Shown here in pieces: positions 50,377-56,207 of a stretch of DNA of 64,000 nt (positions within the stretch are counted from its first letter, which is position 1; each line of letters begins with the position of its first letter). The notes beneath the pieces are model-generated. The model was not told where the DNA came from, did no database searches, and was given only the letters and a program-made list of their open reading frames with translations. A program made the position numbers and the translations under genes. The DNA is taken from the NCBI GenBank assembly GCA_944391425.1, contig CALXTO010000002.1:1-64000 (forward strand), given 5' to 3'. The DNA comes from an uncultured Alphaproteobacteria bacterium (GTDB lineage: Bacteria; Pseudomonadota; Alphaproteobacteria; RF32; CAG-239).

Positions 50377-51684
50377 CTACAGGATAAATTTTGACAGGTC
50401 GCCAGCTTCGGTATACTTATGCAGTCTTTCTTCGACAAATTCGGGGGTGATGACGGCTGTTTCTCCGCTTTTATCGGGAGCATAGTAGCTGATGTCTTCA
50501 AGCAGAATTTCCAAGACCGTATGCAGTCGGCGCGCACCGATGTTTTCGACGTTTTCATTGATGGAAACGGCAATATCGGCAATCTTGTCTATGGCTTCCG
50601 GACGGAATTCCAAACGGAAATTTTCGGTTCCGAGCAGAGCCGTGTATTGTTCGATGAGATTGGCTTCCGGTTCGGTAAGAATGCGGACGAAGTCATTGTG
50701 CGTGAGGGCTTTCAGTTCAACGCGGATCGGTAGGCGGCCCTGAAGTTCAGGCAACAGGTCCGACGGTTTGGCAAGATGAAAAGCGCCGGAACAGATAAAC
50801 AAAATATGGTCGGTTTTGACCATGCCGTATTTTGTGCTTACGGTAGTGCCTTCAATCAGGGGCAACAGGTCGCGCTGGACGCCTTCGCGGGAAACATCGC
50901 CACGGCTGCCGTCGGATTTTCCGGTGATCTTGTCAATCTCGTCAATAAAGACAATACCGTCGTTTTCCACGGCTTTGATTGCTTCGCGGGTAACGGTTTC
51001 ATTGTCCAGGAGCTTGTCGCTTTCTTCATCAATTAGGAGTTTGCGGGCTTCCCTGACCGTCAGTTTGCGGGTTTTGTATTTTTGCGGAGAACCGCCAAGC
51101 AAATCACCCAGACTAATCATGCCCATGGAGGCTCCGGGCATTCCGGGGATGTCTATGGTCGGCATGGAGGCATTGGAGTTATCAAGGAGAGAAATTTCGA
51201 TTTCCTTGTCGTCCAATTTCTTTTCACGAAGGAGCTGGCGGAACTTTTGCTTGGTTTCATCCCCGGCGGATAAGCCGACCAAAACTTCCAGCAGGCGTTC
51301 TTCGGCTCCTTCTTCGGCTTTGGCACAGACCTGCCGCCGCAGCCTTTGGCGGGTGTCGTTGAGAGCAATTTCCAACAAATCGCGAATGATGCTTTCAACA
51401 TCGCGACCGACATAGCCGATTTCGGTAAACTTGGTCGCTTCAACTTTGATGAATGGCGCTTTGGCTAATTTAGCCAGCCGTCGGGAGATTTCAGTTTTGC
51501 CAACCCCGGTCGGTCCAACCATCAAAATGTTTTTGGGAACAATTTCTTCTTTGAGCTTGTCAGAGAGCTGCATCCGCCGCCAGCGGTTTCGCAAAGCAAT
51601 GGCGACGGCTTTTTTGGCATCTTCTTGTCCGATAATATATTTATCGAGTTCGGAGACGATTTCGCGGGGGCTGAAACTAGTCAT
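50377..51684 (-). CDS. hslU: HslU ATPase/unfoldase subunit
   Basis: A 435-residue AAA+ (ClpY) unfoldase of the HslUV protease. Walker A is [15 protein letters not shown], the pore motif follows in [11 protein letters not shown] (GYVG), Walker B is [11 protein letters not shown], and sensor 2 is in [10 protein letters not shown]. The insertion (I) domain is at about residues 110-240. ATG 51684 overlaps the hslV stop by 8 nt. Confidence 0.97.
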
Positions 51685-52210
51685 TTTTAATACTTTCAAT
51701 GATTACGTTATGATTGGTGTAGACATCTATGTCGCCGGCAATTTGCATGGCTTTGCGGGCAATATCTTCCAGCGACAGTTCCGGAATGTCATAAAGGGCT
51801 TTGGCTGCAGCCATGGCATAATTGCCTCCGGAACCGATGCCGATGATGCCGTCGTCAGGTTCCATGACTTCTCCGGTGCCGGAAATGACCAGGGATGTTT
51901 CTTTGTCGGCAACAATCATAAAAGCCTGCAGTTGGCGCAAATATTTGTCCATCCGCCAGTCCTTGGCGAGTTCTACTGCGGCGCGTTTGAGTTGGTTGGC
52001 GTGTTTTTCCAATTTTGCTTCCAGCCGTTCAATCAGGGTTATGCCGTCGGCAGCTGCGCCGGCAAATCCGGCGATAATATTGTTGTTTCCGCCGATACGC
52101 CTCACTTTGACGGATTTTGATTTAAAAATTACCGCTTCACCCAGAGTTGCCTGTCCGTCTCCGGCCATAACCACTTCCTTTCCTTTGCGGATGCATAGAA
52201 TTGTTGTCAT
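51677..52210 (-). CDS. hslV: HslV peptidase subunit
   Basis: A 177-residue proteasome-like threonine protease of the HslUV complex. After Met removal the catalytic Thr is the N-terminal TTILCIRKG residue; [10 protein letters not shown] and [19 protein letters not shown] are diagnostic. Slightly shorter at the N terminus than some homologues, consistent with direct Met-Thr processing. Confidence 0.97.
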
Positions 52211-52271: not shown

Positions 52272-52286
52272 GCCGTCGGTACAAAA

Positions 52287-52312
52287 AACGCCCGGTTTGT
52301 TTATCCGGGCGT
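52287..52312 (-). terminator. Rho-independent terminator after the pseudo-protease lipoprotein gene
   Basis: Arms AACGCCCGG / CCGGGCGTT separated by TTTGTTTAT. On the minus strand the stem is followed by a T-run (complement of the A-run at 52282-52287), 17 bp beyond the stop at 52329. Confidence 0.8.
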
Positions 52313-52328
52313 TGGAGGCTTGATGCGG

Positions 52329-54278
52329 CTATTTCTTTTCTTCGTCTTTGATAACGGCCGGCGTTTTATCAGCTTTGGAGTTATCAATGGCGTCGGCCAG
52401 CGGCGTTTCATAAGTTTTTACCGCCGCCGGTTTTTTATTTTCAAATTTGCGTCCGCAAATTTCCAGCCCAAGACCTTTAAGAGCGGTTTCCACCGGAATA
52501 AACAAATCCGGAGAATCGTCCACCTTTTTGCTGGTGTGGGCAAGTCCGACAATGTTGCCGTTCTTGTCAATCAGCGCTCCGCCGAGGGTAACGGTCTGAA
52601 CAAATGTATCGGCAATGATTTCGGCGCCGCGTTCTTCCGACCAGCGATAACCGGTGACACGTCCTTCATTGTCGATATAGCCTTCGCCTTCGGTGTCAAG
52701 ATCCAACAGACCCAGAGTCAGCAGAATGTCTTTGTTGACTTCCGGCAAGGACAGAGACAACGGCAGCGGTGTGTATTCCGTCGGTTCGTCCAGCAACAGA
52801 AGAGCGACATTTTTGTTGGGGTTGACGCGGAAAGCCGCGCCTTTGAACTTTTTGCCGTTGATTGTCTGAAGGTTAAAGTTGTTGTTGCCTTTGATCATCA
52901 GATCCGCCGAAGTGAGAACCAGATTGTCGGCAATGATCAAACCGGCGCCTTTTTTGCCTTCGGCATTTTCTACGGAAATAATAGAAGCTCTCACCTTATA
53001 AAGGTTATAGGGATTGAGGTTTTCATACGGCGGCTGGTTTTCAATGCAGAAACTGTTGTTGATGTTGGCAAAAGAACTTTCAACCATGTTACGGTTGGCA
53101 ATCAGCTTCTCGTCCGCGGTATTTAAGGGAACGTCCAGCCAATAGTCATCGGCGATAGTTACTTTGTCGTCGATTGTTTTAACGACGGTGCAGCCGTCAT
53201 CAACAATTTCAATGGCGCGGCAATTGTCGTCAATGGCCAGACCGGCCGTTTTGCCGTCACGGGCTTTGATTGTTTTTCCCGTTGCGCTGGAACCTCCGGC
53301 CTGATCGACATTGTTGCCAATACCGGAAGCACAGTTTTGCAGCAGGTTTACGCCTTTGATTTCTTTGTCATATTGGGAGGCAAAGGTTTGGTTGCGCGCA
53401 TCCAGGCTTTGGAGATAGGCCAGCTGCCGCTGAATATCTTCCGGACGGATGCGCTGGGCAAGCGTACTGTTGAAACAATCGATTTCCGGAAGCTTAATCA
53501 AAGCGTCTTCAAAAGCGCGTTCAACGAGGAGCGTTTCGCCATTGGGTTCTCCTTCCGAAATCTGTCCGTAACCGGTTGTGATACCCTTGCAGTAAACTTC
53601 GTCGCGGGCAAGGTTCATCACACGCCAGACGACCGTCATTTCAGAAGAACCGCTGCGCAGCTTTTTCTGTTTGACATTGTTCCAGTCGAATTCGTCACAG
53701 ATATTCATGAAATAATCGGTAATTTCGGCTGTTATGATATATTCGGGATAGGGATGCTTATCCGAATCCATGTAATAGGGGCTTTTTTTATCAACGACAA
53801 CCGGATAGTAATCGTTCATCGTTTCATAAAAGACATCGAAGAAACGCATATCTTTCTGCATGGCGCGTCCCTGATTGAGGAAAACGTTCCGGCTTTCGCG
53901 GCGGCAGCCGAAAATGCGGAAACGATAGTTGCCGAGTTTGTTTTCAAACTCGTCGTATTTGCGTCCTTTTTGGATGCGGAAGTCAACGTATTCCAGTTTG
54001 ACGGGAGCAAAGGAATCGCGGCGGTGGTGCAGGTAAATGTAGGCATCGTACTGGCTGTCGTCGATAATCAGTGTTTGATAGCGGGGCTGAGTGCGGTCCT
54101 GCAGGTAGGAAATGCGCCGAACCGGTTTTTTCTTCATCGGTTCGCACATGCAGTCAAACATTCCCAAAGTGGATTCGCTGCCGTCGCACATACAGGGAAT
54201 CAGTTCAGGGCTTTCTTTGCTGCAAGACGCCAGCAAAAAGAAGCCGAGCAGGAATTTGAGGGATGTTTTTTTCTTCAT
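52329..54278 (-). CDS. Large lipoprotein with inactive trypsin-like domain
   Basis: A 649-residue exported protein. Lipobox LLASC gives Cys19; two CMC motifs follow (residues 29-31, 43-45). Residues 430-605 align with a DegP-type trypsin fold: GAGLIIADNLVLTSADL, NKNVALLLLD, FVQTVTLGGALIDKNGNIVG, and LFIPVETALKGLGLE. Every catalytic position is replaced: His by Asp459, Asp by Asn490, Ser by Leu565. So it is probably a binding or scaffolding pseudo-protease. The middle region (175-265) has an alpha/beta pattern I cannot name. Preceded by yifB with an 11-bp gap. Confidence 0.8.
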   Translation of the reverse strand: MKKKTSLKFLLGFFLLASCSKESPELIPCMCDGSESTLGMFDCMCEPMKKKPVRRISYLQDRTQPRYQTLIIDDSQYDAYIYLHHRRDSFAPVKLEYVDFRIQKGRKYDEFENKLGNYRFRIFGCRRESRNVFLNQGRAMQKDMRFFDVFYETMNDYYPVVVDKKSPYYMDSDKHPYPEYIITAEITDYFMNICDEFDWNNVKQKKLRSGSSEMTVVWRVMNLARDEVYCKGITTGYGQISEGEPNGETLLVERAFEDALIKLPEIDCFNSTLAQRIRPEDIQRQLAYLQSLDARNQTFASQYDKEIKGVNLLQNCASGIGNNVDQAGGSSATGKTIKARDGKTAGLAIDDNCRAIEIVDDGCTVVKTIDDKVTIADDYWLDVPLNTADEKLIANRNMVESSFANINNSFCIENQPPYENLNPYNLYKVRASIISVENAEGKKGAGLIIADNLVLTSADLMIKGNNNFNLQTINGKKFKGAAFRVNPNKNVALLLLDEPTEYTPLPLSLSLPEVNKDILLTLGLLDLDTEGEGYIDNEGRVTGYRWSEERGAEIIADTFVQTVTLGGALIDKNGNIVGLAHTSKKVDDSPDLFIPVETALKGLGLEICGRKFENKKPAAVKTYETPLADAIDNSKADKTPAVIKDEEKK

Positions 54279-54289
54279 GAGTTTTGCTC

Positions 54290-55813
54290 CTATTTACCAT
54301 TGGAAGAAAGACTGCGCCGGTAAGACAACGCTTCCGCTATGTGCAGTTTAAGGATTTTTGATTCGTTTTGCAAGTCTGCAATTGTTCTTGCTAACCGCAA
54401 AGTGCGATGGTAGGCCCGGGCGGAGAGCCTGTTCTGTTCGGCAAAGGTAATCAACAGTTTTTCGGCATCGTTGTCAAGCGCGGCAATTTGTTCGAGAAGC
54501 TTGCCTTTCAGTCCGGCGTTGGTACGAACGTCTTTCTCGCCCAAAGCTTTAAAACGTTCGGTCTGTAAGGCACGTGCTTTGACAACGCGTTCTCTGACAG
54601 CGGCGGAGGATTCTCCTTTTTTAACCATGGCGAGGTCCCAGGGGCTGACGGCCGGTACTTCAATGCAGATGTCAATGCGGTCCAGCAAAGGGCCGGAAAT
54701 TTTTGACTGGTATTCCGCTGCGCAAAGCGGTGCGCGGGGGCATTCCAATCCGGGATTTCCCAAATGTCCGCAGCGGCAGGGGTTCATGGCGGCAACGAGT
54801 TGGAAAGCCGCAGGGTAGGTCGTGTGAGCGTTGACGCGGGAGATGCTGACGTTGCCGTTTTCAAGTGGCTGACGCAGGGCTTCCAGCGTTGAGCGGTTAA
54901 ATTCGGGAAGCTCGTCCAAAAAAAGCACGCCGTTGTGCGCCAAAGATATTTCTCCGGGTTTGGCTTTGCGTCCGCCGCCAATCAATGCAGGGGTGGAGGC
55001 GCTGTGATGAGGTGCCCGGAAAGGGCGCTCAAAGCAGATTTGTCCGTCTTTGAGTTCTCCGGCAACGGAGTGAATCATACTGGTTTGTAAAGCTTCTTCA
55101 ACGGAAAGCGGCGGCAGAATCCCGGGTAATCTGGCGGCAAGCATGGATTTGCCGGATCCGGGAGGGCCGATCATCAAAAGGTTGTGTCCTCCGGCAGCGG
55201 CGACTTCAAGTGCTTTTTTGGCGCTTTCCTGGCCTTTGACATCGGCCAAATCCAGAAGAGAGCTTTGCGGCTGCGCTTGACGGGGCTGCGGAGGAAGAAC
55301 GGGATGGATACCTTTGAAATGGTTAATCAGCTCCAGCAGATTTGGAGCCGCAACAATGTCTTTCAGTCCCGACCAGGCTGCTTCCGAACCGCAAGCCTGC
55401 GGACAGATAAGACCACGGCGTTTGTTTTTGGCATGCACGGCTGCCGGCAGAATGCCGTTGACGGGGAGGATTGAAGCATCCAGACCGAGTTCTCCCAAAG
55501 CAAGATAGGGTTTCAGCCGTTCAGAGGGAATGATGCCCATTGCGGCAAGGACCGCCAGTGCAATCGGAAGATCAAAATGGGAACCTTCTTTAAGCAGGTC
55601 GGCCGGCGCCATATTGATAACGATGCGTTTGGGCGGCAGCTGCACACCCAAAGACTGCAATGCCGAGCGGACGCGTTCGCGGCTTTCGGCGACGGCTTTG
55701 TCCGGCAAGCCGACGATAATGAAATTGGGTAATCCGGCCGCGAGTTGGATTTGCAGGTCAACGTCCAGTGTTTCAAGACCGTTGAAAGTGAGCGTATTGA
55801 TCCGGGACAGCAT
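54290..55813 (-). CDS. YifB/ComM-type AAA+ Mg-chelatase-like ATPase
   Basis: A 507-residue protein with an N-terminal Lon-substrate-like ChlI domain (GLPNFIIVGLPDKAVAESRE), Walker A MIGPPGSGKSMLAARLPG, Walker B GVLFLDELPEF, RAPHHSAS and a zinc-like CRCGHLGNPGLECPRAPLC loop, ending in the Mg-chelatase C-terminal domain (LSARAYHRTLRLARTIADL). Family members such as ComM are hexameric helicases promoting branch migration during natural transformation. Confidence 0.95.
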   Translation of the reverse strand: MLSRINTLTFNGLETLDVDLQIQLAAGLPNFIIVGLPDKAVAESRERVRSALQSLGVQLPPKRIVINMAPADLLKEGSHFDLPIALAVLAAMGIIPSERLKPYLALGELGLDASILPVNGILPAAVHAKNKRRGLICPQACGSEAAWSGLKDIVAAPNLLELINHFKGIHPVLPPQPRQAQPQSSLLDLADVKGQESAKKALEVAAAGGHNLLMIGPPGSGKSMLAARLPGILPPLSVEEALQTSMIHSVAGELKDGQICFERPFRAPHHSASTPALIGGGRKAKPGEISLAHNGVLFLDELPEFNRSTLEALRQPLENGNVSISRVNAHTTYPAAFQLVAAMNPCRCGHLGNPGLECPRAPLCAAEYQSKISGPLLDRIDICIEVPAVSPWDLAMVKKGESSAAVRERVVKARALQTERFKALGEKDVRTNAGLKGKLLEQIAALDNDAEKLLITFAEQNRLSARAYHRTLRLARTIADLQNESKILKLHIAEALSYRRSLSSNGK

Positions 55814-55820
55814 CTGCGTT

Positions 55821-56207
55821 CTACCAACGAGGAGTGAGTTCGGAATTGCGCCAGCGCCGGGTGGGATAGGTGTCGACTTTTAAAAAGTCATAGTTGGCGG
55901 TTTTATAGGGAATATCCCGGAAACGAACATATCCGAACTTTTCAAAATAGCGGGCGCATTGTTCGGCGGAATATTCTTCGTTGCTGTAGCAGTGAACGAT
56001 GTTGCGGTTTTCAAGATTTTGCAGCCCGATATGGTTTTCGTCGTTGACATAGGGGACTTCCGTTACGACACGAATGATTTTTTTTGTTTTTGGGGGGCTT
56101 TGAAACCATGTTTTCCATTCGCATACATCGCATTTTGCTACTGCAGACGCAGCCAGGCAGCAGCTTAAAAACAGGGCGCAAAACGCGGGCAGAAAGGAAC
56201 GTTTCAT
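55821..56207 (-). CDS. Small exported hypothetical protein
   Basis: I do not recognise this 128-residue protein. It has a clear signal peptide (KRSFLPAFCALFLSCCLAAS, cleavage likely after AVA) and a short mature domain with KCDVCEWKTWFQ and SAEQCARYFEKFGYVRF. Four Cys in the mature part could form disulfides. ATG 56207 was chosen for the signal peptide. It heads the minus-strand unit with yifB (7 bp) and the pseudo-protease lipoprotein. Confidence 0.65.
   Translation of the reverse strand: MKRSFLPAFCALFLSCCLAASAVAKCDVCEWKTWFQSPPKTKKIIRVVTEVPYVNDENHIGLQNLENRNIVHCYSNEEYSAEQCARYFEKFGYVRFRDIPYKTANYDFLKVDTYPTRRWRNSELTPRW

Follow-up and report, generated by a model that had tools for sequence, protein, structure and literature searches.

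The gene at positions 52329..54278 of the window (the whole stretch of 64,000 nucleotides that was analysed) encodes a predicted lipoprotein which, judged by its sequence, represents an inactivated branch of a separate and apparently undescribed lipoprotein-protease family; a literature search found no description of such a family. The protein seems to be a one-time envelope protease retained by evolution for a job other than cutting. With a probability of roughly 0.4, we favour the reading that it is a lipid-anchored, probably outer-membrane and periplasm-facing pseudoprotease, i.e., an inactivated protease orthologue, that would serve another envelope factor as a client-binding adaptor or an allosteric partner. 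The coding sequence is divided as follows.

52329..54278, minus strand: pseudoprotease lipoprotein gene, 649 aa (open reading frame; homologues in 81 of 134 related genomes)
54222..54278, minus strand: signal peptide and lipobox LASC with Cys19 and Ser at +2 (from the sequence; Cys19 in 97 of 102 aligned members)
54144..54194, minus strand: Cys-rich segment CMC-x11-CMC with C29, C31, C43, and C45 (cysteine conservation)
53412..54014, minus strand: N-terminal alpha/beta domain, residues 89-289, with a CsgG/DUF330/LptE-like predicted fold (AF2, Foldseek, and conservation)
53010..53411, minus strand: interdomain linker, residues 290-423 (134 residues in the window protein)
52455..53009, minus strand: degenerate trypsin/HtrA-fold domain, residues 424-608 (Trypsin_2 and Foldseek)
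52902..52904, minus strand: D459 at the catalytic His position (D in 55/61 own-family members; H in 25/25 of the intact set)
52809..52811, minus strand: N490 at the catalytic Asp position (N in 61/61; D in 25/25)
52584..52586, minus strand: L565 at the catalytic Ser position (L, I, or V in 57/61; S in 25/25)
52590..52592, minus strand: V563 at the oxyanion-hole Gly position (V in 39/61; G in 25/25)

A sequence-only reading of this DNA had proposed a C-terminal trypsin-like domain of DegP type in which Asp459, Asn490, and Leu565 replace the catalytic residues, and both parts of this proposal stand. Pfam Trypsin_2 matches residues 444-579 over the full model length (E 8e-9, 36.8 bits vs. a cut-off of 27.6), and residues 424-608 show pLDDT values mostly around 85 in a full-length AlphaFold2 model that is modest as a whole (pLDDT 72, pTM 0.53; 47-row alignment). 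Structure prediction, which that reading had suggested as a check for a double beta-barrel, returned a DegP/HtrA-type fold: Foldseek found 715 matches in the PDB at E ≤0.001, the best of which include DegP, DegQ, MucD, HtrA1, and Rv3671c (E about 1e-9 to 1e-8), with isolated protease domains giving target-normalised TM-scores as high as 0.76. A Pfam scan of the pseudoprotease detected no PDZ domain, and about 40 residues follow the barrel. D459, N490, and L565 align with the His, Asp, and Ser of HtrA2 and of 25 intact homologues, and their codons were checked against the sequence. Since degeneration of the triad positions extends to all 61 aligned members of the own family of the window (f1), the replacements are neither chance nor sequencing error. 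The alignment also reveals that the oxyanion-hole glycine is replaced by V563, which the sequence-only reading had overlooked, whereas its claim of a shortened loop before the GGAL motif has to be withdrawn, because residues 555-566 comprise 12 residues in 61/61 own-family members and in 25/25 intact ones. N490, Q561, and R430 (61/61), together with an aromatic residue at 546 (61/61), are clade-specific invariants of the own family. These new invariants mean that the region of the old active site remains under constraint, but of a different kind.

The H-D-S triad and the oxyanion glycine are intact in 25 homologues from other alphaproteobacterial families, with a domain order identical to that of the window protein, and two genomes outside the class (L156 and L157) also keep H-D-S. 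In the families f74, f2, and f51, His and Ser are lost and Asp is kept (EDL, SDL, RDL, GDL), and not one of the 61 own-family members retains the triad. In a tree of 54 rows calculated with the triad columns omitted, f74, f2, f51, and f1 form one clade of 24 rows with a support of 100/100; five very divergent homologues (L143-L147), whose protease domains align poorly, were left out. The catalytic triad is ancestral to the trypsin fold. For this reason, and given the spread of intact forms over many families and beyond the class, we infer that the triad was lost, not gained: a lipoprotein protease with an intact triad was probably inactivated via intermediates keeping only the Asp, and the present DNL arrangement would have followed. 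Homologues with an intact triad had been counted in advance as evidence against a pseudoprotease; they do exist, but only outside the inactive clade, where they support descent from a protease. The label DegP-like is right for the fold, but the protein is not a broken DegP: its family is a distinct one, whose members are lipid-anchored, lack PDZ domains, and carry an N-terminal domain of their own.

Degenerate triads are also present in family f91 and genome G127, which the tree places elsewhere, with G127 on a very long branch. This placement suggests separate losses in the two. When f91 was constrained to group with the large inactive clade, however, the AU test gave no rejection (p 0.267). 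Given this result and the long branch of G127, only one loss of catalysis is firmly supported, and more than one is possible. The f91 members L128, L129, L132, and L140, which come from small genomes, have the triads KGA, KNA, IDS, and SDS, possibly a second catalytic loss. Among the 385 genomes sampled across the class, 47 encode the N-terminal domain. Those of the closest relatives that have named records belong to uncultured Alphaproteobacteria, and several of them derive from animal gut samples; the annotated plasmid-borne relatives gave generic trypsin-like matches only and no full-length match.

The protease domain is under strong purifying selection. Its pairwise dN/dS lies at about 0-0.11 for pairs with measurable dS, which is similar to the N-terminal domain and usually lower than the linker. 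Of the 78 genomes that belong to the own family and order, 75 contain a match without internal stops; two near-complete own-family genomes (G007 and G069) contain no match to the query. The predicted protease fold, the clade-wide loss of aligned catalytic residues, and purifying selection together characterise the protein as a pseudoprotease.

The N-terminal 400 residues, described as unfamiliar in the sequence-only reading, are not a single unknown but consist largely of a domain with a predicted CsgG/DUF330/LptE-like fold (residues 89-289) and a fast-evolving linker (residues 290-423). Folded alone with AF2, the domain reached a pLDDT of 89.6 and a pTM of 0.86, and its best PDB neighbours in Foldseek were CsgG, a DUF330 lipoprotein, Cj1090c, and LptE. 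The match to CsgG has an E value of 2e-5 and a probability of 1.00, but a TM-score of at most 0.46 against the query. Sequence searches with this domain against Pfam, NCBIfam, and PDB profiles gave nothing significant; for the CsgG, DUF330, and LptE families it stayed below the cut-off, with best E values of 0.02-0.2 in one or two members. We therefore read residues 89-289 as a predicted CsgG/DUF330/LptE-like lipoprotein fold, short of proven membership. A match to Nairovirus GP38 (E 0.02-0.13) was taken as chance. C125 and C194 of this domain are near-invariant in active and inactive members alike and may be disulfide-bonded. The loci L141 and L142 (genomes G259 and G261) encode proteins of 213-238 aa that consist of the N-terminal domain without the protease domain, and one of them is divergent from hslVU.

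The linker comprises 20-39 residues in intact members and mostly 104-661 in the inactive clade, and long linkers contain internal repeats. Very long linkers are present at L040, L041, L054, and L061, with repeats (GRYxxGKFVED, GYIDENGKFV, DEDSGVLSSGQGAI) that vary by genus, and a search of the longest-linker locus found no tandem repeats at the DNA level. Long, repeat-containing linkers would suit a surface or envelope structural protein, whose CsgG-like domain docks or assembles at the outer membrane, whose linker and Cys segment are exposed, perhaps for host or cell contact, and whose protease fold serves as a spacer or oligomerisation module. CsgG being the top Foldseek match of the N-terminal domain and the Ser at +2 point in the same direction. 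However, the protease domain is held by selection as tightly as the N-terminal domain, which exceeds the needs of a spacer, the TM-scores to CsgG are below 0.5, and the low dN/dS of the linker is unlike that of an antigenically diversifying region, so that we regard a structural role as possible but unlikely.

The lipobox and the two CMC motifs noted earlier were both recovered at the N-terminus of the window protein. A Ser at +2 after the lipobox Cys fits outer-membrane sorting. The strict lipobox pattern is present in 20/25 intact-triad members and 46/77 degenerate members, and an obvious lipobox is missing from some other own-family genera. The four CxC positions are Cys in 57-62 of the 77 degenerate members vs. 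0/25 intact-triad members, and the CxC-x11-CxC cysteine pair is, by this alignment, a gain of the inactive clade. At L050, L068, L070, and L081, which belong to other own-family genera, KDGSxFPGGxCxxC repeats stand in place of the CMC segment. The strong conservation of the four cysteines and their restriction to the inactive clade raise the alternative that, as in MamO, the dead protease fold has become a scaffold for metal binding or redox chemistry. CMC-x11-CMC and acidic residues near the old active site would then bind metal or form disulfides, and the fold would do no more than present them. D459 is largely conserved, and MamO is a metal-binding alphaproteobacterial pseudoprotease with the same loss of Gly193 (PMC4794232). 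The CxC pairs, however, fall into an N-terminal stretch that is modelled with low confidence and is distant from the protease domain along the sequence, and other genera carry the KDGSxFPGGxC-type repeats there, which leaves this explanation rather improbable.

An unusual hydrolase activity retained by a rearranged active site would agree with the conserved fold and the partly polar old active site; it is very improbable, as 57/61 members have L, I, or V at the nucleophile position and neither the general base nor the oxyanion glycine is retained. A functionless gene decaying towards loss, as the lost catalytic residues and the two near-complete genomes without a match could indicate, can practically be dismissed: it is contradicted by the dN/dS values, which lie far below 1 for every pair with measurable dS, and disagrees with the stop-free matches in 75/78 genomes and with the clade-specific invariant residues.

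The pseudoprotease gene is the third of a closely spaced unit, whose surroundings are as follows.

55821..56207, minus strand: small exported protein with a YPTRRWR...PRW end, first gene of the unit (alignment, order, and co-occurrence)
54290..55813, minus strand: yifB, encoding a Mg-chelatase-like AAA+ protein (PF01078 E 3e-95; adjacency conserved)
52283..52313, minus strand: terminator-like hairpin and U-run after the stop codon (9-bp stem; whole stretch -22.7 kcal/mol, z -3.1)
50377..52210, minus strand: hslV (51677-52210) and hslU (50377-51699) (gene calls; neighbours also in orthologue loci)

yifB begins about 7 nt after the small-protein gene and the pseudoprotease gene starts 11 nt after yifB. 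Almost every own-family locus with sufficient flanking sequence shows the same order, as does L048 from the sister family, and spacing and order together bear out the proposal that the three genes form one unit. The hairpin and U-run suggest that this unit probably ends before hslV; the generic terminator scan missed the hairpin because of its 9-base loop, and the promoter-like sites from a generic scan were no more frequent than expected by chance. The small exported protein is a lipoprotein in most relatives, has a strongly conserved C-terminus, and gave no Pfam match at E 10. It was detected in 20/385 genomes of the class, and in 14 of these together with the N-domain protein, namely in the sampled genomes of f1, f4, f51, and f74 and in three of f91. 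Because these genomes are related, the co-occurrence is suggestive only. The small protein was also found in f23 and f40, in genomes without the N-domain protein. Downstream of the pseudoprotease gene, hslV and hslU are present in many own-family loci, and hslVU also lies directly or closely downstream of the intact-triad orthologues L043, L044, L120, L122, L131, L134, L138, and L139. These common neighbours support the orthology of the intact and inactive forms.

The own genome encodes two Trypsin_2 proteins, the pseudoprotease and a 474-aa Do protease with an intact triad and a PDZ-type C-terminal half, whose gene lies at L155:3241-4702 behind hflK-hflC. Most own-family genomes sampled likewise have two Trypsin_2 matches and a few have one. 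In three congeneric genomes, a degP match is located about 3-4 kb from the pseudoprotease gene, and inspection of one of them showed the two genes in convergent orientation and separated by other ORFs. This linkage is confined to one sub-lineage and could be chance.

For the adaptor or allosteric partner that we favour, fold and conservation suggest that the emptied substrate groove may still bind extended peptides or protein termini without cutting them, while the CsgG/LptE-like domain and the lipid anchor would hold the protein at the membrane. There it could present clients to, or modulate, another envelope factor; candidate partners are the PDZ-containing Do protease from the hflKC-degP locus and the small lipoprotein of the same unit. 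We prefer a non-catalytic, membrane-anchored peptide-binding adaptor by analogy with the active/inactive pairing of MamE and MamO. A more specific version has only a small chance of being right: an hslVU-linked lipoprotein protease, inactivated in an ancestor of the gut lineage, would have been rebuilt with the Cys pair and a long linker as a regulator of the single Do protease, together with the PRW-tailed lipoprotein.

Pseudoenzymes are often duplicates accompanied by an active paralogue. In the present case, catalysis seems to have been lost by the orthologue itself, and living Asp-only intermediates as well as intact orthologues in a related neighbourhood would provide a clean natural series for how an envelope protease becomes a binding protein. 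The analysis also defines a conserved three-gene unit in uncultured gut Alphaproteobacteria.

Among known systems, CsgG, DUF330 (ABC_trans_aux) proteins, and LptE are lipoproteins whose folds the predicted fold of residues 89-289 may resemble, but they show no significant sequence match and a TM-score of at most 0.46. The best Foldseek match of the whole model is the S1C-NTF2 structure of RsgI9 (7sjy), in which the protease fold is likewise a module of an envelope protein; RsgI9, however, is a Gram-positive anti-sigma factor with another partner domain. MarP (Rv3671c) ranks second (3k6z) and has weak NCBIfam similarity, but at 17.7 bits vs. a cut-off of 250 the window protein is far below the threshold, and it carries a lipobox and a CsgG-like domain, whereas Rv3671c is catalytic. 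HtrA/DegP (S1C) proteases share the trypsin-like fold with its double beta-barrel (E about 1e-9 to 1e-8 in Foldseek); the window protein differs in lacking the catalytic triad and the PDZ domain and in having an extra N-terminal domain and a lipid anchor. A further parallel is the active/inactive trypsin-like pair of the magnetosome, in which MamE-dependent proteolysis is promoted by the metal-binding MamO (PMC4794232). Like the window protein, MamO has an alphaproteobacterial Trypsin_2 fold with a degenerate triad and a non-glycine residue at position 193 (PMC4794232), and its genome also holds active trypsin-like proteases. The NCBIfam MamO model matched 18/47 members of the window family at E values up to 1. 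MamO belongs to the Deg branch and is encoded in the magnetosome island, whereas the window family consists of lipoproteins with a CsgG-like N-terminal domain that are often linked to hslVU. If the regulator reading is true, the pairing of an active with an inactive protease would have arisen here independently of the magnetosome case.
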